The translations under genes were made by a program, and so were the position numbers. DNA of 64,000 nt from an uncultured Bacteroidota bacterium (GTDB taxonomy: Bacteria; Bacteroidota; Bacteroidia; Flavobacteriales; Flavobacteriaceae), in contig CACNQM010000004.1 in the NCBI GenBank assembly GCA_902622595.1, positions 62,001 to 126,000 of the forward strand. Direction: 5' to 3'. The notes beneath the pieces were generated by a model. That model had not been told where the DNA came from, made no database searches, and saw only the letters and a program-made list of their open reading frames with translations. Of this stretch, positions 18,688 through 40,417 are shown piece by piece. Positions within the stretch are counted from its first letter, which is position 1; each line of letters opens with the position of its first letter.

Positions 18688-20490
18688 ATGTTTAAACCCA
18701 TTAGAGATATTTTTAGATATATAAATATTTTTCAGATATATCTTGGTATAAGAATGTATCTGATTTATGCACTTGGAATTATAGCTTCTGTCCTTGAAGG
18801 TTTTGGAATTTTAATGTTGCTTCCTTTACTCCAATCAATTGATGCTGGATCTGAAATTCAAAAAAATGAGAACTTAATTAATCAGATATTATATGGTATT
18901 ATTAATTCATTAGGATTATCAGAATCTTTAGTTTCAATATTAATTATAATTTCAACTGCATTTATTTTAAAAGGAATTATTACGTTTTTATCATTAGGTT
19001 TTACTGCATATCTAATTGGGCAATTATTAAAAGAGATAAAGATGAGGTTGTTCACACTTTATTCATCAATGACTTTTGGATATTTTTCTTCAAAAAATAC
19101 AGGTGACTTAATAAATTTAATAAACGAACAACCAACGAAGGCTCTTGAGGCATTTAAACAGTTATCATTATTGGGGTCACATTTAATAAATACTTTAATA
19201 TTGATGACACTAGCGTTTATGATTACATTTAGCTTCGGTGCAATGGCTCTTGTATTAGGAATTATTTTAATGATCTTATTTCTTAAAATGAATTCATTCG
19301 TTCAAAAGTTATCTAGAATTGCTGCCAAAGAAAATGGGACATTGACTAAGTGGTTAATTCAATCACTTCATGGATTTAAGTATTTAACCTCAACCAACCA
19401 AATAAATTCTCTTAAAAACTATATAAATAAATCAATAAAAATTTTAACTAGTACTCAGATAAAATCTGGTGTTGCAGCGGCATTTACTCAGTCTGTAAGA
19501 GAACCGATTGCTGTTCTCTTTATAATGGTCATAGTCTTTATTCAAATTTTTGTTTTTGAATTAAGACTAGAGCCTATACTTGTTTCAATTGCATTATTTT
19601 ACAGGGCACTTAATTCTACCTTGGCTGTTCAAAGTGCATTTCAGGGTACTTTTCAAACTATTGGGAGTATGGAGTTAGTTCACAATGAATTCATAAACCA
19701 GCAAAATAATAGGCAAGAGGATGGAGTTATAGACTTGAAAAAATTCAAAAAAGAAATATTATTAAAAAATGTAGATTTTACTTATAATAACTCAAAAAAA
19801 ATTGTTCTAGATCAAATTTCATTAAGGATTCCTAGTAGAACTTCAATTGCTATAGTAGGAGGATCAGGTGCTGGAAAAACTTCATTAGTTGACTTAATTA
19901 CACTTATAAATCGTCCAGACAACGGTGAATTAAAAATTGACGGAGTACCTCATTCCCAAATCAAAAAATCTTCCTGGCAAAATCAAATTGGTTACGTATC
20001 ACAAGACACTATAATTTTTGATGATACCATAGCCAATAATATTTCAATGTGGCAATCTAAAAAAAATAAAGATGAGTTGTATCAAAATATTAAAAATGCT
20101 GCTAAACAAGCAAATATCCTTGACTTTATAGAGTCTTTACCAGATGGCTTTGATACTATTGTTGGTGATAGAGGAATTCTTTTATCAGGGGGACAAAAGC
20201 AAAGAATTTTTATTGCGAGGGAATTATTTAGAAAACCAAATTTATTAATATTAGATGAAGCTACAAGCGCTCTAGATTCAGAGTCAGAAAAAAGTATTCA
20301 AGAGAGTGTTGACTTATTGAGGGGTAATATAACGGTAATTATAATAGCCCACAGATTGTCAACAATAAAAAGTGTTGACAATATTTATCTAATGGATAAC
20401 GGTAAAATAATTGAATCTGGATCATACAATGAGTTAAGAGATAATGAAAACTCAAAATTTAGTGAGTTTGCTAAACTACAAGTACTATAA
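18688..20490 (+). CDS. ABC exporter (MsbA/PglK-like flippase)
   Basis: A 600-aa fused permease-ATPase. Residues ~1-330 hold six membrane helices; the ATPase carries Walker A GGSGAGKTS, Q-loop, signature LLSGGQKQR, Walker B LLILDEATSALD and switch His in IAHRLST. Its size and position in a glycan operon without an obvious Wzx suggest that it flips lipid-linked oligosaccharide, as PglK does; a lipid A or other export role is possible. It precedes PseC by 10 bp. Confidence 0.88.
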   Translation: MFKPIRDIFRYINIFQIYLGIRMYLIYALGIIASVLEGFGILMLLPLLQSIDAGSEIQKNENLINQILYGIINSLGLSESLVSILIIISTAFILKGIITFLSLGFTAYLIGQLLKEIKMRLFTLYSSMTFGYFSSKNTGDLINLINEQPTKALEAFKQLSLLGSHLINTLILMTLAFMITFSFGAMALVLGIILMILFLKMNSFVQKLSRIAAKENGTLTKWLIQSLHGFKYLTSTNQINSLKNYINKSIKILTSTQIKSGVAAAFTQSVREPIAVLFIMVIVFIQIFVFELRLEPILVSIALFYRALNSTLAVQSAFQGTFQTIGSMELVHNEFINQQNNRQEDGVIDLKKFKKEILLKNVDFTYNNSKKIVLDQISLRIPSRTSIAIVGGSGAGKTSLVDLITLINRPDNGELKIDGVPHSQIKKSSWQNQIGYVSQDTIIFDDTIANNISMWQSKKNKDELYQNIKNAAKQANILDFIESLPDGFDTIVGDRGILLSGGQKQRIFIARELFRKPNLLILDEATSALDSESEKSIQESVDLLRGNITVIIIAHRLSTIKSVDNIYLMDNGKIIESGSYNELRDNENSKFSEFAKLQVL

Positions 20491-20500
20491 AATATTTATA

Positions 20501-21682
20501 ATGAAAAAAACCATAACATATGGAAAACATTTTATCGATCAAGATGACATTGATGCTGTTGTAGACGTATTAAAGCATAAAAATTTAACTCAGGGTGGTG
20601 AAGTAGAATCTTTTGAAAATGCAGTTGCAGAATTTGTTGGTGCTAAATATGCAGTTGCTATGTCTTCATGGACAGCAGGTCTTCATATGGCAAATTTAGC
20701 ATTAGGAATTAAGAAGGGAGATTCAGTTATAACATCTCCAATAACATTTGTTGCAACTTCAAATAGTGTTATTTATTGTAATGCAAAACCTGTTTTTTCT
20801 GATATTGACAATATCACAATCAATCTATGTCCAAAAAAACTTGAACAAACAATTAATGATAATCCTGATGTGAAGGCTATAATTCCAGTTCACTATGGAG
20901 GAGTCTCATGTGATATGGAATCTATTTCGCAACTAGCAAAAAAATATAACCTTTTTATAATTGAAGATGCAGCTCACGCCTTAGGAGCTAGACATTCTGA
21001 TGGTTCAATGGTTGGGTCGTGTAAATTTTCAGACATGACTGGTTTTTCCTTCCATCCTGTTAAATCAATTGCTGCTGGAGAAGGAGGTATGATAACTACA
21101 AATAATTATGATATTTATAAAACCTTATTAAGATTAAGAAGTCACGGAATTAATAAATTAGATGATGCTTTTATAAATAAAGAGTTAAGTAAAACAAAAG
21201 AAACCTCTAATCCGTGGTACTATGAAATGCAAGAGTTGGGCTTTAACTATAGAATTACAGATATTCAATGTGCATTAGGAAAATCTCAATTAAATAAATT
21301 AGACACTTTTATTAATAAGAGAAAATATCTTGTTGATAGATATGACAAAGCTTTTTCTAACTTAAACTTTATAAATCCCATACAAAAAGAATTTAGGGCT
21401 GTAAGTTCGCATCACATTTATGTGGTAAGAATCAATTTTGAAAAAATAAAAAAGTCTAGAGCAGAAGTAATGAATTTATTAAAAAATGCGGGGATAATAA
21501 CTCAGGTACACTATATACCAGTAACAAGTCAACCATATTATGCTAATCTTAAATATATTACTGAAGAATATAAAAATTCACTGGAATATTACAAAGAGTG
21601 TCTAACCCTTCCTTTGTATTTCAGCTTAACTGATGAAGATCAAGATTATGTAATAAATCAATTAAAAGGTGTTTTAGAATAA
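20501..21682 (+). CDS. pseC: PseC: UDP-4-amino-4,6-dideoxy-N-acetyl-L-altrosamine transaminase
   Basis: A 393-aa PLP aminotransferase of the DegT/DnrJ/EryC1 family. In the Pse pathway it aminates C4 of the PseB product. Characteristic blocks: YGKHFIDQDDIDAVVDVL at the N-terminus, SSWTAGLHMA, SPITFVATSN, EDAAHALGA and the PLP lysine in FHPVKSIAAGEGG. The ATG at 20501 is chosen because the upstream extension overlaps the ABC gene and is not conserved-looking. No PseB gene is adjacent. It overlaps the next gene by 1 bp. Confidence 0.92.
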   Translation: MKKTITYGKHFIDQDDIDAVVDVLKHKNLTQGGEVESFENAVAEFVGAKYAVAMSSWTAGLHMANLALGIKKGDSVITSPITFVATSNSVIYCNAKPVFSDIDNITINLCPKKLEQTINDNPDVKAIIPVHYGGVSCDMESISQLAKKYNLFIIEDAAHALGARHSDGSMVGSCKFSDMTGFSFHPVKSIAAGEGGMITTNNYDIYKTLLRLRSHGINKLDDAFINKELSKTKETSNPWYYEMQELGFNYRITDIQCALGKSQLNKLDTFINKRKYLVDRYDKAFSNLNFINPIQKEFRAVSSHHIYVVRINFEKIKKSRAEVMNLLKNAGIITQVHYIPVTSQPYYANLKYITEEYKNSLEYYKECLTLPLYFSLTDEDQDYVINQLKGVLE

Positions 21683-23067
21683 TGAATAAGACAGTAACAT
21701 TAAGATCTGAAAGATTAACTTATGAACCTCTAAATATGCAGCATTTATCAGAAAAATATGTTAATTGGATGAATGATAAAGATGTTAATATTTACATGAG
21801 TTCAGGCGGTGACTATACACTGGAAAAATTAAGGTTATTTTTATTAGATCAACAGAAAAAAAAGATTTTGTTTTGGGCAATAATAAAAACTAATACCAAG
21901 GAACATATTGGAAATATTAAAATTGACCCTATTGATGAAAAAAGAAAATCTGGTGAGTATGGCATCATGATTGGTAATAAGTTAGAATGGGGAAAAGGGT
22001 ATGCTAAAGAAGCTTCAAAAACTATAATTAAATATTGTTTTGAAGAAATAGGTTTGAATGAGATTACATTAGGAGTTAATAAATCAAACATAAATGCAAT
22101 AAAATTATATGATAGATTAGGCTTTATCAAGTTTAATAGAAAAATATCTCCTGACAAATACTATAATATTAAAGATGAAATTATTAGAATGTCCAAGAAT
22201 AAAAACATTGATAAAATTATTCTAGGGACTGCTCAATTTGGAATGGATTATGGTATTAATAATTTAAATGGTAAAATCAATCAAGAAGAGATATATAAAA
22301 TATTAGAATACTCATATGACAATGGAATAAGAAATATTGATACTGCAGAGATTTATGGTAATTCAATTGAAACTATAGGTGAGTTTCATAGACAATTTCC
22401 TCAGAAAAAATTTAAAGTTTTTTCTAAGGTAAATTATGGAAATAATAACACTTGTTTTTCATCTAATATTATTACTAACTTAAAGAAACTTGGTGTAGAT
22501 AATTATGAAGGATATATGATTCATAATTATCAACTTTTTAAGTCTGATCAAAGACTAGTTACTGCAATGCTAGATGCAAAAAAATCTGGTATAATATTGA
22601 AAAATGGAATCTCTTTATATTCAAATTTTGAGGTATACGATATAATTGATGAAAATACCTTTGACTTTATTCAGCTTCCATTTAATTTATTGGATAACTC
22701 TAAAAAGAGAGAGTCTGTAATTAAATCTGCTAAATCTAAAGATATTGAGACTTATGTTAGATCAATTTTTCTTCAAGGATTATTTTTTAAGTCTCAATCT
22801 TCTATTCCATATAATTTAAAACCTCTTAAAAAATATATAAAAAAACTAATTAAAATTGGGCTGGATATTAATATAGATATTAATGAACTTGCACTTAAAT
22901 ATTCACTTAGTAAAAGTTACATTGATAAAATTATTTTTGGAATTGATAATTTGAGCCAGTTAGAAAAAAATATAGATATAATTAAAAATGAAGTTCAAAT
23001 TCCTTCTGTCAAGATTGATAAAATTAATGTATTAGAAAATGAATTATTAAATCCAACAAATTGGTAA
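21682..23067 (+). CDS. Fusion of GNAT acetyltransferase (PseH-like) and aldo/keto reductase
   Basis: A 461-aa two-domain protein. Residues 1-~170 form a GNAT domain (GYAKEASKTIIKYCFEE acetyl-CoA region, LGVNKSNINAIKLYDRLGF end), likely the N-acetyltransferase step filled by PseH elsewhere. Residues ~176-461 form an aldo/keto reductase starting ILGTAQFGMDYG, with the full catalytic tetrad visible: Asp and Tyr in NIDTAEIYG, Lys in VFSKVN and His in GYMIHNYQ. The reduction substrate is unknown; it is presumably a sugar or nonulosonate intermediate. Both domains look intact, so this is a true fusion and not a frameshift. Confidence 0.85.
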   Translation: MNKTVTLRSERLTYEPLNMQHLSEKYVNWMNDKDVNIYMSSGGDYTLEKLRLFLLDQQKKKILFWAIIKTNTKEHIGNIKIDPIDEKRKSGEYGIMIGNKLEWGKGYAKEASKTIIKYCFEEIGLNEITLGVNKSNINAIKLYDRLGFIKFNRKISPDKYYNIKDEIIRMSKNKNIDKIILGTAQFGMDYGINNLNGKINQEEIYKILEYSYDNGIRNIDTAEIYGNSIETIGEFHRQFPQKKFKVFSKVNYGNNNTCFSSNIITNLKKLGVDNYEGYMIHNYQLFKSDQRLVTAMLDAKKSGIILKNGISLYSNFEVYDIIDENTFDFIQLPFNLLDNSKKRESVIKSAKSKDIETYVRSIFLQGLFFKSQSSIPYNLKPLKKYIKKLIKIGLDINIDINELALKYSLSKSYIDKIIFGIDNLSQLEKNIDIIKNEVQIPSVKIDKINVLENELLNPTNW

Positions 23068-23069
23068 AT

Positions 23070-23828
23070 ATGAAAATTATAGCAATTACACAAGCAAGAA
23101 CTGGATCAAGTCGATTCCCTAAAAAGATTTTAGAAAGAATTAATGGAAAAAGTTTACTTGAAATTCATATTAACAGAATAAAAAAATCAAATTTAATAGA
23201 TGAGATTATTATTGCTACAACAGAAAGTAAAAGAGATGATGTTATTGTGGAACTTGCTAATTCATTAATGGTAAAGTCATTTAGAGGTAGTGAAAATGAT
23301 GTTTTAGATAGGTTTTATAACTCAGTTAAACCTCTAAAACCTGACTTAGTAGTCAGATTGACCTCAGATTGTACTTTAATTGATGCAGATTTGATAGACG
23401 AGATAATTAGTAGTGCTTTAAATAAGGATTTAGATTATTATTCAAATATACTCTACCCTACTTATCCAGATGGCCAAGATATAGAAGTTTTTAAATTTTC
23501 ATCATTAAAAAAAGCATGGGAATCATCAAGGTTGGATTCCGATAGAGAACATGTTACACCATATATAAAAAATAACTCTACATATATGTCAAACAAGTTA
23601 TTTACATCAGAGAATCATGAATATAAGAAAGATTTCAATCGAGTAAGGATGGTTGTAGACTATAAAGAAGATTTTAAAGTAATTGAATTATTGATAAAAA
23701 AATTAGGTGAAAAAGCTACTTGGAAAGAATATGCAAAACTTTATTTATCAGATAATAATATTAATTCAATTAATTTTCAAATAAAAAGAAATGAAGGTTA
23801 TCAAACATTACCATCAAATAACAATTAA
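23070..23828 (+). CDS. SpsF-like cytidylyltransferase (candidate CMP-nonulosonate synthetase, PseF-like)
   Basis: A 252-aa nucleotidyltransferase with the N-terminal ITQARTGSSRFPKK binding loop, IIIATTESKRDD, FRGSENDVLDRFY and LTSDCTLIDADLI. Members of this family (SpsF, and PseF in the Pse pathway) activate nonulosonic acids with CTP. The ATG at 23070 directly follows the previous stop; a TTG at 23061 lies inside the previous gene and is not needed. It ends adjacent to the class III aminotransferase. Confidence 0.82.
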   Translation: MKIIAITQARTGSSRFPKKILERINGKSLLEIHINRIKKSNLIDEIIIATTESKRDDVIVELANSLMVKSFRGSENDVLDRFYNSVKPLKPDLVVRLTSDCTLIDADLIDEIISSALNKDLDYYSNILYPTYPDGQDIEVFKFSSLKKAWESSRLDSDREHVTPYIKNNSTYMSNKLFTSENHEYKKDFNRVRMVVDYKEDFKVIELLIKKLGEKATWKEYAKLYLSDNNINSINFQIKRNEGYQTLPSNNN

Positions 23829-25139
23829 ATGAAAAAAGGACAAGAACTATATAAAAAGGCAAAACGAATCATTCCAGGAGGAACAATGCTTCTTTCTAAA
23901 AGACCAGAACTATTTCTCCCAGAAATTTGGCCTTCTTACTTCTCTAAAGCAAAAGGCTGCAAGGTATGGACACTAGACAGTGAGGAGTTAATAGACATGT
24001 CAATTATGGGAATAGGCACTAATTCTCTTGGTTATGGACATCCTGAAGTTGACGAGAAAGTTCAACAAACAATCATTAAGGGGAACATGAGTACATTTAA
24101 CTGTCCTGAAGAAGTTGAATTAGCTGAAGAATTGATTGAGATGAATCCATGGGCAGATATGGTGAGATTTGCTAGGTCAGGAGGAGAAGCAAATGCAATT
24201 GCAGTTAGAATTGCTAGAGCAGCATCAGGAAAAGATGGAGTTGCTATATGTGGTTATCATGGTTGGCATGACTGGTATTTGTCTGTAAATCATAATTCTA
24301 ATAATGATGAATTATCAGATCATTTACTACCAGGTCTCAAACCAAAAGGTGTACCAAAAAACTTAAAAAATTCTGTTTTTCCTTTTCAGTATAATAATAT
24401 TAAAGAGTTAGAAAATATAATTAAAACTCAAAATATTGGTACAATCAAAATGGAAGTAGTAAGAAATTTTGGACCTGAGAATAATTTTTTACAAGAAGTC
24501 CGACAGCTTGCATCTAAAAATAATATTGTCCTAATATTTGATGAGTGTACATCGGGATTTAGAGAGACTTACGGCGGGATATATAAAAAGTTCAATGTTG
24601 AGCCAGATATTATTATGTATGGAAAAGCACTAGGTAATGGTTATGCAATAACTTCTGTAGTTGGAAGGAGAGAAATAATGGAATACGCTCAAGAAACTTT
24701 TATAAGTAGTACTTTTTGGACTGAAAGAATTGGTCCTAGTGCAGCTCTTAAATCACTTGAGGTTATGAAAAGAATTAAATCTTGGGAAATTATAACATCA
24801 ATTGGAAATAAAATAAAAGATGGATGGGAAAAAATATCAAAAACTCATAGCATTTCAATATCTGCATCTGCGATACCGGCAGTTAGCAGTTTTACTATTA
24901 ATTGTAAAAATTCGCTCCACTATAAAACATTTATAACTCAAGAAATGTTAAAAAAGGGAATTTTAGCTAGTACTAATTTTTATGCTTGTATAGATCATTC
25001 ACAAAAATATGTTGATGACTATTTATTTAACCTGAATCAGATTTTTCATATAATATCAAAATGTGAATCCAAACAATTAAATATTAACGAGTTATTGGAC
25101 AATCAGATTTGTGATTCGGGATTTGGCAGGCTAAATTAG
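23829..25139 (+). CDS. Class III PLP aminotransferase (glutamate-1-semialdehyde aminomutase-like)
   Basis: A 436-aa fold-type I enzyme related to HemL but embedded in the nonulosonate module. Motifs: RIIPGGTMLLSKRP, GIGTNSLGYGHPEVD, RFARSGGEANAIAVRIARA, CGYHGWHDWY, IFDECTSGFRETYGG and the PLP lysine in MYGKALGNGY. HemL proper is not expected inside a glycan operon, so it probably transaminates a sugar or keto-acid intermediate; the reaction is unknown. A 32-bp gap separates it from the next small gene. Confidence 0.85.
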   Translation: MKKGQELYKKAKRIIPGGTMLLSKRPELFLPEIWPSYFSKAKGCKVWTLDSEELIDMSIMGIGTNSLGYGHPEVDEKVQQTIIKGNMSTFNCPEEVELAEELIEMNPWADMVRFARSGGEANAIAVRIARAASGKDGVAICGYHGWHDWYLSVNHNSNNDELSDHLLPGLKPKGVPKNLKNSVFPFQYNNIKELENIIKTQNIGTIKMEVVRNFGPENNFLQEVRQLASKNNIVLIFDECTSGFRETYGGIYKKFNVEPDIIMYGKALGNGYAITSVVGRREIMEYAQETFISSTFWTERIGPSAALKSLEVMKRIKSWEIITSIGNKIKDGWEKISKTHSISISASAIPAVSSFTINCKNSLHYKTFITQEMLKKGILASTNFYACIDHSQKYVDDYLFNLNQIFHIISKCESKQLNINELLDNQICDSGFGRLN

Positions 25140-25171
25140 ATATTGCTCAATAAATTATTAAATACAAAAAA

Positions 25172-25357
25172 ATGACAGACTTAGAAATTATAAATAAAAT
25201 TGAAAAAATTAGATCAGAAAATAACATTAATTGGATGAATGTGCTAAGGCTAGCATTTAAATATGCTCCAGATGAAGCAAGGGAAATAGTCTCAAAGATT
25301 AATGTAGATGATAACCGGATTGGTGAATTATTAAAAAAGCTATCTAAAAATAAATAA
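25172..25357 (+). CDS. Small 61-aa protein of the nonulosonate module
   Basis: A 61-residue charged, helical protein (MTDLEIINKIEKIRSENN, then WMNVLRLAFKYAPDEAREI, then a Lys-rich end) lying between the aminotransferase and the formyltransferase. It is in the operon strand and spacing (32 bp before, 12 bp after), with an A-rich upstream region usual for this genome. I do not recognise a named domain. The conserved position suggests a subunit or accessory to one of the neighbouring enzymes, which is inference. Confidence 0.65.
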   Translation: MTDLEIINKIEKIRSENNINWMNVLRLAFKYAPDEAREIVSKINVDDNRIGELLKKLSKNK

Positions 25358-25369
25358 AAATTTCATTTG

Positions 25370-26014
25370 ATGAGAATAACAATCCTGTGTACTGATATTA
25401 ATCATCCAGTAATAGATTATTTAAATAAATGGATAGAATTAAATAGTCTGGACAATGAAATTGATTTGATATATGACAAATCAGATATATCAAATGGTGA
25501 TATTTTATTTTTAATATCATGCCATGAAATAATACCAAAAACAATTAGAGATTGCTATAAGAAAACATTATTAATTCATGCAAGTGATCTTCCTAAAGGA
25601 AGGGGATGGAGCCCACATGTGTGGGATATAATTAATGGTTCAGATAAAATTACACTTTCATTATTAAAGGCAGAGGATAAAATAGATAGTGGAGAGGTAT
25701 ACAAAAAGACTCATATTAATATTGAAAATCACGAGCTATGGAATGAAATAAATCATAAGTTGTTTAGTGCAGAAATTTTTTTGATGGACTTTGCTGTAAA
25801 ATCATTTCATAATTTATCAGGTATAAGTCAGAGCAAAGATCAAGATGTTTCAATTTATTCAAAGAGAACTCCTAGTGATAGTATTATAGATCCAGATCTA
25901 TCTATTAGAGACCAGTTTAATAAAATAAGAGTAATGGATCCAGTTAGGTATCCTGCATTTTTTGAGCTAAATGGACATAAGTATAAACTAAGAATTAATA
26001 AAATTAATGAATAA
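25370..26014 (+). CDS. Formyltransferase-fold enzyme, candidate sugar N-formyltransferase
   Basis: A 214-aa protein resembling the catalytic domain of Fmt/ArnA-type 10-formyl-THF transferases: LLIHASDLPKGRGWSPHVWD contains the active-site His and the SLLP-like loop, and KIDSGEVYKK contains the conserved Asp. The usual catalytic Asn before the His is not obvious (Thr-Leu-Leu-Ile-His), so chemistry may vary. In a nonulosonate cluster it may add the N-formyl group known from Pse5Ac7Fo-type sugars. The ATG at 25370 is preferred to a TTG three bases earlier. It overlaps PseI by 8 bp. Confidence 0.75.
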   Translation: MRITILCTDINHPVIDYLNKWIELNSLDNEIDLIYDKSDISNGDILFLISCHEIIPKTIRDCYKKTLLIHASDLPKGRGWSPHVWDIINGSDKITLSLLKAEDKIDSGEVYKKTHINIENHELWNEINHKLFSAEIFLMDFAVKSFHNLSGISQSKDQDVSIYSKRTPSDSIIDPDLSIRDQFNKIRVMDPVRYPAFFELNGHKYKLRINKINE

Positions 26015-27056
26015 GTCTATAAAAATTAATGGTACTAGTATAGGTGAAAAATTCCCCCCATATATAGTTGCAGAAATGTCAGCAAATCATAACGGAGATA
26101 TTAATAATGCATTTCAAATTATTAAATCTGCAAAAGAAAATGGAGCGAATTCCATAAAAATTCAAACTTATAGACCGGATACTATTACAATTGACTCAGA
26201 TAAAGATGATTTTAAAATAAAAGATGGTTTATGGAAAGGCCAAACCCTTTATGATTTGTATGAATGGGCTCATACACCATGGGACTGGCATAAAACTCTC
26301 TTTGATTACGCAAAAAAGCTAGATATTACAATTTTTAGCTCACCTTTTGATAAAACCGCAGTTGATTTTCTAGAAGATCTTAATACTCCTGCCTACAAGA
26401 TTGCTTCATTTGAAATTGTAGATTTACCATTAATTAAATATGTTGCTAGTACAAAAAAGCCAATAATTATTTCTACTGGAATGGCAAGCTATGATGAGAT
26501 TCATCAAGCTGTAAATGCATGTCAAGAATCGGGTTGTAATAATCTAGCTCTTCTACATTGTGTAAGTGGATATCCTGCCCCTTCAAAAGATTATAATTTA
26601 AATACAATTACTGATATTAAAAATAAATTTAATCTTGTTACGGGTTTATCAGATCATACACTAAATAACATTACTGCAATTGCTAGCATACCTCTCGGTG
26701 TATCAATAATTGAAAAACATTTTACATTAAATAGAAAAGGAGGAGGACCAGATGACAGCTTTTCATTAGAACCTGAAGATTTAAAAAATTTATGTGAGTC
26801 TACATATATCGCATGGGAGGCTCTTGGTAAGATAGATTATGAAAGAAAATCTAGTGAAATGGATAATATTAAGTTTAGGAGATCTTTATATTTTGTTAAG
26901 GCTTTAAAAAAAGGTGATTTAATAACTATGGATCATATTAAAAGTATCAGACCTGGATTTGGTATTTCTCCAAAATATATAGATGAAGTTATTGGAAAGC
27001 GGGCAATTAATAATACTGAAAAAGGAACTGCAGTAACCAAAGATTATATCAAATAG
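26007..27056 (+). CDS. pseI: PseI-type nonulosonic acid synthase
   Basis: A 349-aa NeuB-family enzyme that condenses a 6-carbon sugar with phosphoenolpyruvate. Motifs: VAEMSANHNGDINNAFQII, SIKIQTYRPDTITID, SSPFDKTAVDFL, KIASFEIVDLPLI, STGMASYDEI, LSDHTLNN and EKHFTLNRKGGGPDDSFSLE. The GGPDxxFSLEP form is typical of pseudaminic acid synthases rather than NeuB. The C-terminal SAF domain (RSLYFVKALKKGDLI onward) is present. The usual PseG hydrolase that prepares its substrate is not in the window. Confidence 0.9.
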   Translation: MNKSIKINGTSIGEKFPPYIVAEMSANHNGDINNAFQIIKSAKENGANSIKIQTYRPDTITIDSDKDDFKIKDGLWKGQTLYDLYEWAHTPWDWHKTLFDYAKKLDITIFSSPFDKTAVDFLEDLNTPAYKIASFEIVDLPLIKYVASTKKPIIISTGMASYDEIHQAVNACQESGCNNLALLHCVSGYPAPSKDYNLNTITDIKNKFNLVTGLSDHTLNNITAIASIPLGVSIIEKHFTLNRKGGGPDDSFSLEPEDLKNLCESTYIAWEALGKIDYERKSSEMDNIKFRRSLYFVKALKKGDLITMDHIKSIRPGFGISPKYIDEVIGKRAINNTEKGTAVTKDYIK

Positions 27057-28564: not shown

Positions 28565-29119
28565 ATGAAGCAAAATTATCAGTTAAGACAAAATTTACCT
28601 CTAAAAATAGTTAGTAATTTAATTAACTTCTTTTACAGAATTAAAGGTTTAAACGCTGATTCATCAGCTGTGATTTTTTTTAATGCTAAACTATTAAGAT
28701 TTCTAAATAACATCAAAATATCTAAAAATGTTATAATTAAATCAAATGCACAGATTTGTTCTTGCAATAAATCAGCTAAAATTCATATCGGTGCAAATAC
28801 TACTGTAGGATATTATACATTCATTTATTCATCCGAACAAATTTTGATTGGAAGAAACTGTATGATTGCACCATTTGTATACATAGTTGATAGCTCTCAT
28901 GGAACAAAACTTGATTCCACGATGAACACTCAACCAAACAAAACCTCTCCTATAATTATTGAAGATGATGTTTGGATTGGAGCTAACTCAACTATACTTC
29001 CGGGTGTAAAAATTGGTAAAGGCTCAATTATAGCAGCTGGGTCAGTTGTAAATTCTGATGTAACTGAGCACTCAGTATATGGAGGAGTGCCAGCAAAATT
29101 TATCAAAAAAAGATCATGA
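28565..29119 (+). CDS. Left-handed beta-helix O-acetyltransferase (WbbJ/LbH family)
   Basis: A 184-aa hexapeptide-repeat acetyltransferase. Repeats occur from about residue 60, including IHIGANTTVGYYTFI and WIGANSTILPGVKIGKGSI; the catalytic His lies in VDSSHGTKL, and the end GGVPAKFIKKRS is typical of maltose/sugar O-acetyltransferases. It probably O-acetylates a residue of the polysaccharide or a nonulosonic acid. It overlaps the next gene by 4 bp (ATGA). Confidence 0.85.
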   Translation: MKQNYQLRQNLPLKIVSNLINFFYRIKGLNADSSAVIFFNAKLLRFLNNIKISKNVIIKSNAQICSCNKSAKIHIGANTTVGYYTFIYSSEQILIGRNCMIAPFVYIVDSSHGTKLDSTMNTQPNKTSPIIIEDDVWIGANSTILPGVKIGKGSIIAAGSVVNSDVTEHSVYGGVPAKFIKKRS

Positions 29120-30849
29120 AAAAAATTGGTATTATTTTATTAGCTCGTTATAGCTCAAAAAGATTACCTGGTAAATCTTTGATGGAAATTAATGGAAAAA
29201 AATTAATTGAAAATATAAATGACAATATTAAACATAACTTCCCTAATTTAAGTTTAATAGTTGCAACATCAACTGATAAAACAGATGATAAAATTGAAAC
29301 CTTTTGTAATAATAGTTTTATCAGATGTTTTAGAGGAGATTTAAATAATGTCTCAGAAAGGTTTTTGAATTGTGCTACAAAATATAATCTTGATTACGCA
29401 ATTAGATTAAATGGAGATAATCTTTTTTTAGAACCTTTTTTATTAAATGAAATGATAAATAAAATATACTCAGGAAACTTTGATTTTATCTCAAATGTTC
29501 CAGGGAGATCCTATCCTTATGGATTAAGTATTGAAATCTTAAAAATTGAATTTTATAAAGCAATTTTTAGTAAGATTATTTCTCGAAGAGATAAGGAACA
29601 TGTGACTTCTTGGTTATATGATAATGAAAATTTTGGTACCAGATTCTATTTTAAAAATCAACATTTTAAAAATCTAAATAAATTTAAAATTTCAATTGAT
29701 GATTATCAAGATGTTGATTTGGCTAAAAAAATTATCTCATACAATAATGGCAGTACTAGTATTTCACTTTCAAAATTAAGTGAGTTTAAAAAAATAAATT
29801 CTAAATATCCTGACTTAAATTTTCAAACAAATATATGGAGTGGTAAGAATGGGCCAATGTTAATTGCAGAAATAGGAGGGAATCATGAGGGTAATGCTGA
29901 ATATGCAAATAAATTAATCGACTTGGCAATTGAATCTGGAGTTGATTGTATAAAATTCCAGCTTTACAAAGCAGATTCAATTGTAAATAAATCAATAAGC
30001 AAGGAAAGACACTCTCATTTTAAAAAATTTGAATTGTCAAAAAACAAGCATATTGAATTTGCCAAAAAAATAAGGTCAAATGGAATCATATATAATTCTT
30101 CTGTTTGGGATTTAAAAATGTTAGACTGGATAGATAGATATTTGGATTTTTATAAAATTGGATCAGGAGACTTAACAGCTTGGCCGTTATTAAAAGAATT
30201 TGCAAAGAGAGGTAAGCCAATACTACTTTCAACTGGTTTAAGTAATATTTATGAAATTAAGAGTACAATAGATTTTATAACATCTGAAAATTCTATTTAT
30301 AAAGCTCCTAATATGATTTGCATTCTTCAGTGCACATCAATGTATCCAATTCATAATAGTGACGCAAATCTCAATGTAATCAATACCTTTAAAAATACAT
30401 TTAATAGACCTGTTGGTTATTCAGATCACACCTTGGGTAATAAAGCATTAATTTATGCATCGGTTCTAGGTTCATCAGTTCTAGAGTTTCACTTTACTGA
30501 TGATAGAAAAAACAAAAAATTTAGAGATCATCAAGTTTCATTGACAAAAAATGAGGTTATGACTTTAATAAAAGACATATCTGATATAAATGTCCTTCTT
30601 GGTGATGGAGAGAAACGCTTATTACCTATTGAGAGTATAAATAATCATCAAATTAGCTTCAGAAGAGGAGCATATATAAATAAAAAAATTAAGAAAGGAA
30701 GTATAATTGAGTTTGAGGATCTAACTTTTCTTAGACCTTTAGAAGGTACAGATTCAAGAGACTTTACTTCAATAGTTGGTTCAAGGGCAAAAAGAGATTT
30801 AATGCCACTTCAAGAAATTATAGAAAAAGTTGATTATGAAAAAAAATAA
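29116..30849 (+). CDS. Fusion of SpsF-like cytidylyltransferase and NeuB-family nonulosonate synthase
   Basis: A 577-aa three-part protein. Residues 1-~235 are SpsF-like (LLARYSSKRLPGKSL loop, FRGDLNNVSERF, RLNGDNLFLEP). Residues ~246-500 are NeuB-like (LIAEIGGNHEGNAEYANKL, CIKFQLYKADSIV, KIGSGDLTAWPLL, GYSDHTLGNK). Residues ~513-577 are a SAF domain. Two oddities are visible: the usual EKHFT motif reads EFHFTDDR (457-464), and the nucleotide loop has RYSSKR instead of RxGSxR. It is the second NeuB and second SpsF homologue in the operon, so a second nonulosonic acid or a different step is likely. The reading frame is continuous. Confidence 0.87.
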   Translation: MKKIGIILLARYSSKRLPGKSLMEINGKKLIENINDNIKHNFPNLSLIVATSTDKTDDKIETFCNNSFIRCFRGDLNNVSERFLNCATKYNLDYAIRLNGDNLFLEPFLLNEMINKIYSGNFDFISNVPGRSYPYGLSIEILKIEFYKAIFSKIISRRDKEHVTSWLYDNENFGTRFYFKNQHFKNLNKFKISIDDYQDVDLAKKIISYNNGSTSISLSKLSEFKKINSKYPDLNFQTNIWSGKNGPMLIAEIGGNHEGNAEYANKLIDLAIESGVDCIKFQLYKADSIVNKSISKERHSHFKKFELSKNKHIEFAKKIRSNGIIYNSSVWDLKMLDWIDRYLDFYKIGSGDLTAWPLLKEFAKRGKPILLSTGLSNIYEIKSTIDFITSENSIYKAPNMICILQCTSMYPIHNSDANLNVINTFKNTFNRPVGYSDHTLGNKALIYASVLGSSVLEFHFTDDRKNKKFRDHQVSLTKNEVMTLIKDISDINVLLGDGEKRLLPIESINNHQISFRRGAYINKKIKKGSIIEFEDLTFLRPLEGTDSRDFTSIVGSRAKRDLMPLQEIIEKVDYEKK

Positions 30850-32218
30850 TACATCTCCTTTGGTAACCATATACATTCCATCTAGGAATTATTCTAATTA
30901 TTTAGAGAATTCAATAAATAGTGTAATTAATCAAACATATATTAATTGGGAACTAATAATAATTGATGAAGGCTCAGTTGATAAAACTTCTAAAATTGCT
31001 AAAAAATTTGAAAAAGAAAATCCAGATAGAATCACTTTTATAAAGAACATAAAACCACAAGGATTACAGAAAGTTGCAAATAATATTTTAAAAATAGCGA
31101 AAGGTAAATACATGATGAGATTAGATGCAGATGACTGGCTTCATGAGATTGCCCTCGATCAAATGGTTCAAAAACTAGAAAAAGATTCTGAATATGGAAT
31201 TGTTTATGGCAACTATTTTTATACAAACGAAAAAGGGGATGTAATAGGAGTTGAACTTAGACATAATATTGGAAAAGAAAATCAAAATAGCCAATTACCA
31301 CCACATGGGGCATGTACTTTATTTAAAACGGATATTTTAAGAAGCGCTGGCGGATATTCTGAAAATGTAAATGCTCAAGATGGATGGGATCTTTGGTATA
31401 AATTAATTAAAAAATCTGGTGCTATAAATATAGACCTTCCCTTATTCTATTACAGGCAACATAATCAATCATTAAGCAAAGACAATACAAGATTATTAAA
31501 AGCAAGAGCTAAAATATTTAAAGAAATTAGAGAAAAATTAAAAAATAATCATAAGCCAAAAGTTCTAGCAGTTATACCAGTAAAGGAGTCATATCCAAAT
31601 ATGAAAAATGTTCCATATCAAAAGATCAACGGTAAGTCATTGCTTGAAATTTCGATAAATAGTGCACTCAACTCAAATCAAGTCAATGCTTTGGTTGTGT
31701 CATCAGAGAGTAAAACTGTATTAAAATTTTCTGAGCAATTAGAATCTAAGAAAATTGTATCAAGCCACTATAGATATTTGAGGAGTTCAAATGAGAGTAA
31801 TGATATACCAATTAATGACTTTCTAAGATCTGCAGGTTATTTCTATGAAAAAGAATGTGGAGAATATCCTGATATTCTAATTTACCTTAGCCTTCATGCA
31901 ATCAATAGAAATAAAGATCACATCGAGGAAGCAATAAATAATTTAATTATTTCAGAGTCTGAATGTGTTGTTTCTGTTCAAGAAGAGAGAGAGCCAATGT
32001 TCAACATAACTAAATCAGGACTTAATCTTATTAACCCTGGAAGATTTATAGATCTATCATTTGAAAAAGAAAGACTATATAGATTTAATGGAAGTATTAT
32101 TGCATCAACATGGGATAATATTTTAAAAAATAACTTATTCGGATCTAAGACATCATTTATTGAAATGAATCATCATGATAGTATCCAAGTTAAAGACTCT
32201 TCTTTGTTTGATAAATAA
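30836..32218 (+). CDS. Fusion of GT2 glycosyltransferase and degenerate NeuA-like cytidylyltransferase
   Basis: A 460-aa protein. Residues 1-~240 are a family 2 glycosyltransferase (VTIYIPSRNYSNYLENSI, DEGSVDKT, DxD-type LDADDW). Residues ~245-460 resemble CMP-acylneuraminate synthetase (VLAVIPVKESYPNMKNVPYQ, INGKSLLEISI), but the RGGSKG loop is replaced by KESYPN and the LQPTSPLR-like block reads IYLSLHAINRN, so catalytic activity is doubtful. The ATG at 30836 is preferred to a TTG at 30830. It overlaps the SpsF-NeuB gene by 14 bp. A GT carrying its own donor-binding module is one reading. Confidence 0.8.
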   Translation: MKKNNTSPLVTIYIPSRNYSNYLENSINSVINQTYINWELIIIDEGSVDKTSKIAKKFEKENPDRITFIKNIKPQGLQKVANNILKIAKGKYMMRLDADDWLHEIALDQMVQKLEKDSEYGIVYGNYFYTNEKGDVIGVELRHNIGKENQNSQLPPHGACTLFKTDILRSAGGYSENVNAQDGWDLWYKLIKKSGAINIDLPLFYYRQHNQSLSKDNTRLLKARAKIFKEIREKLKNNHKPKVLAVIPVKESYPNMKNVPYQKINGKSLLEISINSALNSNQVNALVVSSESKTVLKFSEQLESKKIVSSHYRYLRSSNESNDIPINDFLRSAGYFYEKECGEYPDILIYLSLHAINRNKDHIEEAINNLIISESECVVSVQEEREPMFNITKSGLNLINPGRFIDLSFEKERLYRFNGSIIASTWDNILKNNLFGSKTSFIEMNHHDSIQVKDSSLFDK

Positions 32219-37143: not shown

Positions 37144-38145
37144 ATGTCTAAAGGTAAACTATTAATTACAGGTGGAACTGGTTCTTTTGGAAGTACATAT
37201 TTAAAAAAGGCACTAGAGAATAATCAGTTTGATGAAATTTTTATTTTTAGTAGAGATGAAAAAAAACAGGATGATCTCAGAAAAACATTAAATTCTAATA
37301 AAATTAATTTTTATTTAGGTGACGTTAGAGATATTGAATCTGTTAATACAGTAGTTAGAAAAGTTGATTATATCTTTCATGCAGCTGCACTAAAGCAAGT
37401 CCCCTCATGTGAATTTTTCCCATTAGAAGCAGTAAAAACTAATATTATTGGTACTAGTAATGTTCTTAACGCTGCTGAAAACTTCAACGTTAAAAAAGTT
37501 GTTATTTTAAGCACCGATAAAGCAGCTTATCCTATAAATGCTATGGGTATGTCAAAAGCATTAATGGAAAAAGTTATGATATCAAAGTCAAGGACATTAG
37601 GTAGTAAATCTGTTTTTTGTGGCACAAGATATGGTAATGTAATGGGGTCTAGGGGGTCTGTTATTCCATTGTTTATAAAACAAATAAAATCAAAAAAAGA
37701 CTTAACTATAACCAATCCTATGATGACTAGATTTATGATGTCACTTACTAATGCTGTTGAATTAGTTGATTTTGCTTTTGAAAATGCTAATCAAGGTGAT
37801 ATTTTAATTCAAAAGGCTCCATCAGCTACTATTGAGACATTAGCTAACGCACTAATTGAAATTTTTAACTCAAAATCAAAAATTAAAAACATAGGCATTA
37901 GACATGGTGAAAAAATGCATGAGACTCTTGTTACTAGTGAGGAAATGATTAAGGCAGAAGATCTGAAAAATTATTATAGAATAAAAGCTGATGCACGTGA
38001 CTTGAACTATGAACAATATTTTTCTGACGGTAATAGAGGAAAAGAAATAGATACAGAGTATAACTCAAGTAATACAAAGATTCTAGATAAAAAGGAACTA
38101 ACAAAGATATTATTAGAACTACCCGAGGTACAATCTCAATTATAA
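37144..38145 (+). CDS. capE: CapE/WbjB-type UDP-GlcNAc 4,6-dehydratase, 5-inverting
   Basis: A 333-aa SDR that starts the UDP-L-FucNAc pathway by forming UDP-2-acetamido-2,6-dideoxy-L-arabino-4-hexulose. The active site shows Thr124-Asp125-Lys126 in LSTDKAAYP and Met134-x-x-x-Lys138 in AMGMSK. Met in place of the usual Tyr is a hallmark of the CapE type, as against the Tyr of PseB. GGTGSFGS is the nucleotide loop and NVMGSRGSVIPLF follows. CapF and CapG genes come next in the expected order. Confidence 0.93.
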   Translation: MSKGKLLITGGTGSFGSTYLKKALENNQFDEIFIFSRDEKKQDDLRKTLNSNKINFYLGDVRDIESVNTVVRKVDYIFHAAALKQVPSCEFFPLEAVKTNIIGTSNVLNAAENFNVKKVVILSTDKAAYPINAMGMSKALMEKVMISKSRTLGSKSVFCGTRYGNVMGSRGSVIPLFIKQIKSKKDLTITNPMMTRFMMSLTNAVELVDFAFENANQGDILIQKAPSATIETLANALIEIFNSKSKIKNIGIRHGEKMHETLVTSEEMIKAEDLKNYYRIKADARDLNYEQYFSDGNRGKEIDTEYNSSNTKILDKKELTKILLELPEVQSQL

Positions 38146-38155
38146 TTATCAAAAA

Positions 38156-39268
38156 TTGAAACTTGCAATAACAGGTCAAGAAGGATTTATAGGTTCTCAC
38201 CTCTATAATACAATTAAATACAAAAGAACAGATATTCAGTTAGTAGACTTTAGCAAAGACTTTTTTGATAATGACAAATCAATTGACTCAGTATTAAATA
38301 ACGTAGATATAATAGTCCACTTGGCAGGTGTTAATAGACATAATGATCCTAGTTTTCTCTATAATCAAAATATCAAGCTTTCTGAAAAAATCTTAGATTC
38401 AATTAAAAGAGTTAGATTTACCGGTCATTTAATTTTTGCTTCTTCTACACAAGAGAATGACGATAATCCATACGGTAATGCAAAAAAAACGTCTCGAAAC
38501 TTATTTGATGTAGAGTCAAAAAAAATTGGTTATAATTTTACGGGTTTAATTATTCCAAATGTTTTTGGACCCTTTACAAAGCCAAATTATAACTCATTTA
38601 TTGCTACCTTTTGTTATAACTCGATAAGAGATGTTGAAAATAAAATTATAATAGATACTAAAGTATCTCTAATATATATTGAAACCCTGGTAAATAAAAT
38701 TATTGAGACTTTTACTAATCAACCAAAATCTAAACTAGAAGTATCAAATGAGACAACAATTACTGTTAGTGCTGTAAAAAATCTAATTGAAGACTTTAAA
38801 GACACGTATCTTATAAATGGTGCAATACCTAAATTAAATACTAAATTTAAAAAAGATTTATTTAAAACTTTTATCACCTACATTCCTCTCCAAAGTTTTT
38901 TCCCTAAAAGATATAACTTATTTACAGATGAAAGAGGAACGTTTGCAGAACTGGTTAGAACTGAAGTACCAGGTCAGGTATCATTCTCAATAACAAAAAA
39001 AAATGAGACAAGAGGTAATCATTTTCATACTAGAAAAATTGAGAGATTTTCTGTAATAAATGGAGAATCGCTAATTCAGATTAGAAAAATTAACTCTGAT
39101 GAAATCTTTGAATTTAAGCTTTCTGGAAGTAATCCTTCATATATTGATATGCCGTTATGGCACACTCATAATATTAAAAATATTGGTTCCGAACCCTTAA
39201 TAACAGTATTCTGGATTAATGAGTTTTATGATGATGCTGATCCAGATACTTTCTATGAAAAAGTGTAA
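38156..39268 (+). CDS. capF: CapF/WbjC: bifunctional C3-epimerase/C4-reductase
   Basis: A 370-aa protein with an N-terminal SDR domain (MKLAITGQEGFIGSHL, HLAGVNRH, NPYGNAKK) and a C-terminal cupin (from about residue 255; TRGNHFHTRKIERF and MPLWHTHNI supply metal ligands). In CapF the cupin epimerises C3 and the SDR reduces C4. It starts with TTG at 38156; the N-terminus fits the family exactly and no ATG is available upstream. It is 10 bp from both neighbours. Confidence 0.92.
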   Translation: MKLAITGQEGFIGSHLYNTIKYKRTDIQLVDFSKDFFDNDKSIDSVLNNVDIIVHLAGVNRHNDPSFLYNQNIKLSEKILDSIKRVRFTGHLIFASSTQENDDNPYGNAKKTSRNLFDVESKKIGYNFTGLIIPNVFGPFTKPNYNSFIATFCYNSIRDVENKIIIDTKVSLIYIETLVNKIIETFTNQPKSKLEVSNETTITVSAVKNLIEDFKDTYLINGAIPKLNTKFKKDLFKTFITYIPLQSFFPKRYNLFTDERGTFAELVRTEVPGQVSFSITKKNETRGNHFHTRKIERFSVINGESLIQIRKINSDEIFEFKLSGSNPSYIDMPLWHTHNIKNIGSEPLITVFWINEFYDDADPDTFYEKV

Positions 39269-39277
39269 ATTTAAATA

Positions 39278-40417
39278 ATGAAAAAACTTAAAGTAGTAAC
39301 TGTCGTTGGAACAAGACCTGAGATAATTAGACTATCATCAATAATTAATAGGCTAAATAAGTCAAAATCTATTGACCATTATCTAGTTCATACTGGACAA
39401 AACTATGATAAAAACCTTAAAGATGTTTTCTTTAAAGACCTTGAAATAACCGAACCAGACTACTACCTAGATTCTGCTCAAAATTCTCCAGTTTCTACTA
39501 TTGGTGATATCTTAATAAAGATAGACAAGTTACTAGATGATTTATCTCCTGACGCTTTTTTAGTTTTAGGTGATACAAATAGTTGTATATGTTCAATTGC
39601 TGCTAAAAAGAAAAAAATTCCAATCTTCCATCTTGAAGCAGGAAATAGGTGCTTTGATATGAGGGTTCCTGAAGAAACAAATAGGAGGCTTGTTGATCAT
39701 ATTTCTGATATCAATCTAACATATAGTGATATTGCAAGAGATTATTTAATAAGTGAAGGATTAAATCCTGATCAAATTATAAAAGTTGGCTCTCCAATGT
39801 TTGAGGTTATTTCAAAACATAAAAACAAAATTTTACAATCTAATATTGTAAAGCAACTCAGTCTTAAGCCTAAAAAATATATTTTGGTATCCTGTCATAG
39901 AGAAGAAAATGTAGATAATGAAAATAGCTTTAATATGATTATAGATTCTCTAAATGGTCTGGCTGATCATTTTAAATTTCCAATTATTTTTTCAACACAT
40001 CCAAGAACTAGAAAAATGATTGAAATGAGAAAGCCTAAAATGAACAAATTAATTAGTCTAATAGACCCCTTAGGATTTATTGACTATAATAATCTACAGA
40101 TTAATTCATTTATTGTGTTATCAGACAGCGGTACTATTTCTGAGGAGTCATCTATATTAAATTTTAAAGCACTAAATATTAGAGAAACTCATGAAAGACC
40201 AGAGTCAATGGAAGAATCAGCTGTTATTTTATCAGGCCTTAGTTTTGACAGAATTCTTCAATCTATTGAGACGATTCATGATCAAGAAACAGAAGAAAAC
40301 AGAAATATCCTACTCGTTAAAGATTATAGTTATCCAAATGTTTCCATGAAAATTGAAAGAATTATAATGTCATATGTTGACTATGTTAATAGAGTTGTAT
40401 GGCAAAAAGGATACTAG
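39278..40417 (+). CDS. capG: CapG/WbjD: UDP-N-acetyl-L-fucosamine-forming C2 epimerase
   Basis: A 379-aa member of the UDP-GlcNAc 2-epimerase family. Motifs: VVGTRPEIIRLS, VHTGQNYDKNL, LVLGDTNS, HLEAGNRCFDMRVPEETNR, VSCHREENVDN and LSDSGTISEESS. Its place after CapE and CapF identifies the CapG subfamily, the last step to UDP-L-FucNAc, rather than the general WecB. It overlaps the next gene by 19 bp. Confidence 0.9.
   Translation: MKKLKVVTVVGTRPEIIRLSSIINRLNKSKSIDHYLVHTGQNYDKNLKDVFFKDLEITEPDYYLDSAQNSPVSTIGDILIKIDKLLDDLSPDAFLVLGDTNSCICSIAAKKKKIPIFHLEAGNRCFDMRVPEETNRRLVDHISDINLTYSDIARDYLISEGLNPDQIIKVGSPMFEVISKHKNKILQSNIVKQLSLKPKKYILVSCHREENVDNENSFNMIIDSLNGLADHFKFPIIFSTHPRTRKMIEMRKPKMNKLISLIDPLGFIDYNNLQINSFIVLSDSGTISEESSILNFKALNIRETHERPESMEESAVILSGLSFDRILQSIETIHDQETEENRNILLVKDYSYPNVSMKIERIIMSYVDYVNRVVWQKGY

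Follow-up and report, generated by a model that had tools for sequence, protein, structure and literature searches.

We analyzed a 64,000-nucleotide (nt) stretch of contig CACNQM010000004.1 (hereafter, the window) from an uncultured marine Flavobacteriaceae bacterium, in which a cluster of seven open reading frames (ORFs) at 20501-27056 carries genes for a nonulosonic acid of the pseudaminic acid (Pse) type. The seven ORFs are contiguous, nearly gapless, and on one strand, as follows.

20501..21682, + strand: PseC, UDP-4-keto-6-deoxy-L-AltNAc C4 aminotransferase (TIGR03588, 486.8 bits; cut-off, 423.5)
21682..23067, + strand: fusion of a PseH-like GNAT domain (about amino acids 1-172) to an aldo/keto reductase (AKR; about amino acids 173-461) (PF13302 and PF00248)
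23061..23828, + strand: SpsF-like cytidylyltransferase (PF02348, 117.6 bits)
23829..25139, + strand: HemL-like class III pyridoxal phosphate (PLP) aminotransferase (PF00202)
25172..25357, + strand: conserved 61-amino-acid protein, function unassigned (homologs in other loci)
25367..26014, + strand: formyltransferase-like protein without the catalytic Asn (PF00551 and alignment)
26007..27056, + strand: PseI, nonulosonate synthase (TIGR03586, 496.4 bits; cut-off, 340.25)

PseC and PseI were scored against NCBIfam equivalog cut-offs, and the GNAT, Aldo_ket_red, CTP_transf_3, Aminotran_3, and Formyl_trans_N domains exceed their Pfam cut-offs. The start of PseC is the ATG at 20501; its profile score was computed on 20495-21682, two codons longer than the gene, and the mechanical ORF starts at 20444. 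A previous sequence-only reading had listed PseC, an acetyltransferase, an SpsF-like protein, and PseI in that order, together with a GNAT-fused AKR, a HemL-like aminotransferase, a formyltransferase, and a 61-amino-acid protein; all are present, PseC and PseI at scores above their equivalog cut-offs. Three of the family resemblances fall below the profile cut-offs. The GNAT domain scored 42 bits against the PseH profile, under the cut-off of 93.1. The SpsF-like protein, the one protein compared with the PseF profile, scored 28.3 bits (cut-off, 205.7) and is not a PseF equivalog, and the HemL-like protein scored 185.6 bits against TIGR00713 (cut-off, 527.3) and is not a glutamate-1-semialdehyde aminomutase equivalog.

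The AKR-SpsF-HemL module

A tblastn scan (E ≤ 1e-3) gave at least 577 stretches with a relative of the HemL-like protein (below, HemL), and the best 80 (57 to 72% identical) were examined. The neighborhood set has 95 HemL rows, in which L209, L212, and L213 repeat L020, L032, and L028, respectively. At least 5 kb is present on both sides in 65 rows. The 55 among them with PseC- or PseI-like genes are called biosynthetic (L209 and L212 included), and the remainder are rows with the N-acetylneuraminate lyase NanA (6) or other rows (4). The neighborhood thresholds were set by us, and the PseI-like profile also picks up Neu/Leg-type synthases. With these thresholds, SpsF is present in 53 of the 55 biosynthetic rows, AKR in 52, PseI-like genes in 54, PseC in 48, and PseB in 43; the numbers for PseG, formyltransferase-like genes, and GNATx1 (a GNAT-like protein described below) are 28, 17, and 13. 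AKR, SpsF, and HemL are a conserved module in several phyla that does not replace PseB or PseG.

The genes, their families, their catalytic residues, and their conserved co-occurrence can be read directly from the sequences. Lys266 of the HemL-like protein, by family knowledge presumably the PLP lysine, is kept in 93/93 rows. Of 73 aligned AKR rows, 72 retain the D/Y/K/H residues that we take to be the catalytic tetrad, and the last is gapped there. SpsF is fused to HemL in 53/95 rows, and the GNAT-AKR fusion of the window is also seen in L017. In L067, L072, and L093, an SpsF-AKR fusion lies directly upstream of the SpsF-HemL fusion. This SpsF-AKR architecture is that of EpaA (CTP_transf_3 plus Aldo_ket_red) of Acinetobacter baumannii prophages, which together with EpaB, a short-chain dehydrogenase/reductase (SDR), converts Pse5Ac7Ac to 8-epi-Pse5Ac7Ac in vivo, as established by nuclear magnetic resonance of the capsule (PMC12053666). 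In the window the two domains are encoded by neighboring genes.

Module carriers belong to the Bacteroidota, the Pseudomonadota (including SAR11, SAR86, and SAR116 single cells), the Cyanobacteriota (Prochlorococcus), and other phyla. Within the window's own order, HemL was found at E ≤ 1e-60 in 7/296 genomes, the source genome included; five of the others are 64 to 68% identical and one is 32% identical. On a Pseudosulfitobacter plasmid the annotated order is pseB-pseC-AKR-GNAT-hypothetical-class III aminotransferase-pseG-pseI. Sequence searches of the PDB with HemL, GNATx1, and SpsF returned generic relatives only. HemL modules also occur on contigs binned as Methanobrevibacter (L035) and Bifidobacterium breve (L089), which are probably mis-binned. 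In the genome of L032, SpsF is only 24% identical to that of the window, and the module contains an extra, diverged NeuB-like gene (L212, 7874-8884), placed between AKR and SpsF; L024 has a similar pair.

Structural data for one species bear on what the module makes. According to a review, an 8-amino-3,5,7,8,9-pentadeoxynonulosonic acid occurs in the O-polysaccharide of the fish bacterium Tenacibaculum maritimum, formerly Flexibacter maritimus (PMC3210612), and we set beforehand the prediction that T. maritimum should carry the AKR-SpsF-HemL module. Published T. maritimum 16S oligonucleotides were matched exactly by one of the 166 genomes of the genus, G814; an earlier 16S 17-mer gave no exact match among 397 genomes of the family and matched 71 with one mismatch. 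G814, a single contig, encodes a HemL 63% identical to the window's in a locus (L205) of the order PseB-PseC-AKR-SpsF-HemL-GNATx1-GNAT-PseI, and PseG was not found in it (best match, 17.8 bits). The prediction held: T. maritimum, for which an 8-amino nonulosonate is reported, has the module and no recognizable PseG. In G814, C8 amination and cytidine monophosphate (CMP) activation would be left to AKR, SpsF, and HemL, and in the window, as in T. maritimum, they adjoin PseC and PseI. Carriage in the genus, which includes a genome deposited as Polaribacter (L020), is about 7%; 12/166 genomes gave HemL matches, of which that in G857 is only 34% identical, leaving 11 carriers of the subfamily, and that in G914, one of the 11, is broken by stops.

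Close HemL relatives also lie beside N-acetylneuraminate lyase-like genes (L060, L069, L074, L076, L084, L097, and L054). In several Alphaproteobacteria (L060, L069, and like loci) they occur with a peptide-type ATP-binding cassette transporter and the lyase, to which L069 adds NanE and a NanK-like kinase; in Devosia (L097) and a member of the Chitinophagaceae (L054) the lyase-like genes were labeled by reading. These neighborhoods point to the breakdown of amino nonulosonates, and they tie HemL to nonulosonates independently of biosynthesis without telling which carbon is involved. Lyase-linked HemLs fall at three separate places in the HemL tree, in which the starred branches force at least three changes (gains or losses) and the bootstrap is not settled.

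The first step and the place of PseG

The cluster is one part of 27 successive genes on the same strand (14601-43489), whose intergenic gaps measure -20 to +32 nt. Farther along this run are three genes that bear on the first step.

37144..38145, + strand: FnlA/CapE-type UDP-GlcNAc 5-inverting 4,6-dehydratase (FnlA, 449.9 bits; PseB, 323.3 bits)
38156..39268, + strand: CapF/FnlB-like protein, proposed L-FucNAc branch (labeled by reading the translation; a homolog adjoins FnlA in L213)
39278..40417, + strand: WecB/FnlC-like UDP-HexNAc 2-epimerase, proposed L-FucNAc branch (labeled by reading the translation; homologs adjoin FnlA in L211 and L213)

The sequence-only reading held that PseB is missing from the window. 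This is correct in that no protein exceeds the PseB cut-off of 407.75 bits; the product of 37144-38145 is nonetheless a dehydratase of the PseB family, encoded in the same gene run. It is the best match to the PseB profile in the source genome (323.2 bits in the genome-wide search) and the sole PseB-family match there at E ≤ 1e-40, and its FnlA and PseB scores are each below the respective equivalog cut-off. It has Met at the position of the PseB catalytic Tyr, as is reported for CapE (PMC3699295). CapE/WbjB are reported to catalyze the C4/C6 dehydration and C5 epimerization known from PseB/FlaA1 and to give the same product as PseB (PMC7439481, PMC3699295), so that the one dehydratase could supply PseC as well as the L-FucNAc branch.

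Among 13 genomes checked, PseB exceeded its cut-off in 8, and only lower-scoring matches were found in the source genome (G000), its congener G464, G676 (the genome of L032), and G674 (the genome of L028); another congener, G629, had no PseB-family match at 1e-40. PseB is absent from 12/55 biosynthetic rows at the threshold used, one of which (L207) has PseB split over two frames. Three of the 12 were followed up (the window, L032, and L028), and all have an FnlA-type gene on the same contig; in L028 and in the genome of L032 it shares the contig with PseC.

PseG, also said to be missing, was indeed not found in the window or, at E ≤ 1e-3 or E ≤ 1, in the source genome. That genome is 85.7% complete, and the absence of a gene from it is weak evidence taken alone. 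The sequence-only reading would have had an ordinary pathway if pseB and pseG lay elsewhere in the genome; both were searched for in this incomplete assembly, and neither was found. Its observation is confirmed in part, with the dehydratase as the qualification. Two congeners (95% and 92% complete) also gave no PseG, which counts for little, the check there covering PseG only. PseG exceeded its cut-off in 6/24 genomes of a first set and 3/11 of a further set. In two single-contig module carriers, G124 (100% complete) and G163 (99% complete), PseG matches are weak throughout, and the same holds for G082 and for the genomes with L020, L026, L028, and L029. Such weak matches lie mostly at model positions of about 150 to 270, and we take them for MurG-like proteins. 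PseG-like genes under the cut-off occur in G013 (86 bits) and G851 (123.5 bits). Because G814 is a single contig that carries the module and no recognizable PseG, a nonulosonate can probably be made without PseG. AKR and HemL were considered as the replacement for PseG and ruled out; they co-occur with PseG.

The interval between HemL and PseI, which holds PseG in some genomes, is occupied by other proteins elsewhere. The order is HemL-[PseG-GNAT]-PseI in G818 (L207), HemL-GNATx1-GNAT-PseI in T. maritimum (L205), and HemL-[GNATx1-GNAT]-PseI in G846 (L210); in the window the slot contains the 61-amino-acid protein and the formyltransferase-like protein.

L205 13113-13691, L013 7017-7571, L210 12275-13297, and like loci: GNATx1, GNAT-like protein in the PseG slot

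L205 and L207 are close relatives, sisters in the HemL tree (100/91), between which GNATx1 and PseG swap places. GNATx1 and PseG occur together in 0/55 biosynthetic rows (two rows are repeat copies) and neither occurs in 14/55, counts in which related rows are not independent. By eye, the alignment suggests that GNATx1 lacks what we take to be the usual acyl-coenzyme A motif, RxxGxG. GNAT folds are not known to act as hydrolases, and as a replacement hydrolase GNATx1, which the window itself does not have, is only a lead.

The 61-amino-acid protein was found in 3 of 14 genomes searched, the source genome included, and has no NCBIfam or Pfam match at E ≤ 0.001. A 73% identical homolog adjoins HemL in G676, a Bacteroidetes single-cell genome (L212, 5070-5294), and one that is 50% identical is present in a Pelagibacteraceae genome. 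A homolog in a Pelagibacteraceae genome also adjoins HemL (L082, 6898-7095).

The ArnA-type N-formyltransferase triad is Asn-His-Asp. In the alignment, the window's formyltransferase-like protein keeps His and Asp and has Leu at the position of the catalytic Asn, which makes the N-formylated product proposed by the sequence-only reading uncertain. It aligns best with proteins that are fused to PseG (L041, L053, and L098) or adjoin PseG (L048, L056, and L085); this group has V/I/L-x-H versus the N-x-H of canonical formyltransferases. Asn is kept in the formyltransferases of L021, L022, L030 (second copy, at 12.3 kb), and L032. L032 shares the 61-amino-acid protein, yet its formyltransferase has the Asn and is therefore a different, canonical-looking enzyme.

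The same gene run contains a second nonulosonate set. At 29116-30849 an SpsF-like domain is fused to a NeuB-type synthase (NeuB, 255.6 bits; cut-off, 399.65), and at 30830-32218 is a GT2 domain protein whose C-terminal half, by reading, resembles CMP-sialate synthetase. The organism may make two different nonulosonates.

Proposed pathway, alternatives, and known systems

Taken together, the cluster represents a real, conserved variant of the pseudaminic-type pathway, with a probable C8-amination module, an FnlA/CapE start, and no UDP-sugar hydrolase found. We think it likely that the product is a CMP-activated 8-amino-8-deoxy pseudaminic-type acid (5,7,8-triamino-3,5,7,8,9-pentadeoxy-non-2-ulosonate). 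The sequence-only reading had offered an extra-aminated nonulosonate among its interpretations; several lines of evidence back this one, which can be narrowed to C8, and as a whole its interpretation is partly supported. We infer every reaction assigned to proteins of the window, and likewise the acyl groups and the order in which the C8 steps take place. The dehydratase at 37144 would make UDP-4-keto-6-deoxy-L-AltNAc, shared by the L-FucNAc branch and PseC; PseC would add the C4 amine (later N7), which the GNAT domain would acylate. After removal of UDP by an enzyme other than PseG, PseI would join the free sugar with phosphoenolpyruvate. Next, the AKR, as the proposed C8 oxidoreductase, would convert the hydroxyl at C8 into a ketone, the HemL-like protein would transaminate C8, and the SpsF-like protein would then activate the sugar by adding CMP. 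The formyltransferase-like protein may acylate one amine. A wider scheme, which we put forward tentatively and consider doubtful, is that 8-amino nonulosonate synthesis is widespread and has a PseG-independent branch in the Bacteroidota, in which one of the slot proteins (GNAT-like in T. maritimum and relatives; the 61-amino-acid and Asn-less formyltransferase-like proteins here) releases UDP or makes its release unnecessary.

Several points weigh against an 8-amino product. AKRs usually reduce. The EpaA-like AKRs are only 26 to 29% identical to that of the window, and kinship to EpaA is by architecture only. No candidate UDP-sugar hydrolase was found by homology in T. maritimum G814 or in the window cluster. 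Neither AKR nor SpsF is near HemL in any of the six NanA loci, and HemL can therefore act without them. PseI scores are 140 to 230 bits in L035, L040, L045, L049, L063, L068, and L088, among others; HemL thus also accompanies low-scoring, perhaps Leg/Neu-type, synthases, and the products may differ among loci. The assignment to C8 is backed by a single chemical structure, whose source does not name the strain in the text available, assigns no configuration at C8, and has the two acyl groups in either order (PMC3210612). In the O-antigen cluster of Legionella pneumophila serogroup 6, a gene (Lp6_764) annotated as glutamate-1-semialdehyde aminomutase adjoins PseG, and a non-1 Legionella polymer is named without an 8-amine in the reference list of the same paper (PMC3694923); this cluster, its gene known by annotation, may be a counterexample.

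HemL might instead place its amine elsewhere on the nonulosonate, for example at C4, or on a different precursor, for example a Leg-type sugar; the product would then be extra-aminated and not 8-amino. Its varied synthase partners and its occurrence near NanA without AKR fit this idea, which we consider improbable given that C8 is both the site of EpaA/EpaB action (PMC12053666) and, in T. maritimum, the site that is aminated in addition to N5 and N7 (PMC3210612). We likewise give little credence to an ordinary Pse5Ac7Ac or 8-epi-Pse pathway in which PseG and PseB are encoded where the assembly is incomplete and the added genes make a minor modification or none. The incompleteness of the genome favors it, and EpaA-type modules do yield 8-epi-Pse (PMC12053666); however, three single-contig genomes (G814, G124, and G163) have the module and no recognizable PseG, HemL and its Lys are conserved, and no adh_short domain, as expected of an EpaB-type SDR, was found in the seven proteins of 20501-27056, to which that search was confined. 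Finally, the reductase, aminotransferase, and formyltransferase could supply the PseI substrate by a route of their own, in place of PseB and PseG, as the sequence-only reading had also suggested. What stands of this is that PseG was not found in the source genome or in several module carriers, single-contig genomes included. The reductase and the aminotransferase are not that route, because both also occur beside PseB (43/55 biosynthetic rows) and PseG (28/55); in addition, the FnlA type can cover the PseB step and EpaA acts on Pse itself (PMC12053666), which makes such a route very improbable.

To judge from searches of open-access papers, this would, if the 8-amino product is correct, be the first time that genes are assigned to a C8-aminated nonulosonate. 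It would explain a gene set found in several phyla, let annotators predict 8-amino sugars from genomes, and pose the question of which enzyme stands in for PseG where a single-contig genome lacks it. Bacterial surfaces are decorated with nonulosonates, which act as antigens. The proposed chemistry resembles Kdo8N synthesis by KdnA/KdnB in Shewanella, in which an ulosonate is oxidized and then transaminated at C8; KdnA and KdnB belong to other dehydrogenase and aminotransferase families, and the sugar has eight carbons.

Compared with the classical PseB-C-H-G-I-F pathway, the window shares PseC and PseI equivalogs and a PseH-like GNAT; it differs in that PseG was not found, the FnlA/CapE type stands for PseB, an SpsF-like protein stands for PseF, and AKR, HemL, and formyltransferase-like genes are added. 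The T. maritimum locus shares PseC-AKR-SpsF-HemL-...-PseI and the failure to find PseG in the genome, but has its PseB in the cluster and two GNATs between HemL and PseI, where the window has the 61-amino-acid and formyltransferase-like proteins. PseJ (PDB 6ci2 and 6ci4) is a formyltransferase fold named for a Pse pathway, to which the window's formyltransferase-like protein is a weak match (E = 5e-4); the window protein differs in lacking the usual triad Asn, a comparison made on the residues of the window protein. The legionaminic acid (sps) pathway of Bacillus subtilis also has a CapE/WbjB-like first enzyme (SpsM) and an SpsF-type cytidylyltransferase, but it has SpsG, and AKR and HemL are not mentioned in the available text (PMC7439481). 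In the Pse cluster of Vibrio B9-25K2, an SpsF-AKR fusion is encoded after PseC, as an SpsF-like protein and an AKR are here, but a dehydrogenase is next, PseB and PseG are in the cluster, and the available text does not mention HemL (PMC7371886).

No close relative was found in phage records with the window's AKR (2 records, 25.8%), HemL (34 records, all <60%), or an EpaA-like fusion (3 records, each at less than half coverage) as the query. A close known parallel is EpaA-EpaB, which combines a cytidylyltransferase-like domain with an AKR and acts at C8 of Pse (PMC12053666). In EpaA the two domains are fused, whereas in the window SpsF and AKR are separate genes and the AKR is fused to a GNAT; and where the SDR EpaB gives the C8 epimer, the window has a class III aminotransferase instead. 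Epimerization at C8 would be expected to pass through the 8-ketone, and an aminotransferase in place of the SDR would, by analogy, give the 8-amine.

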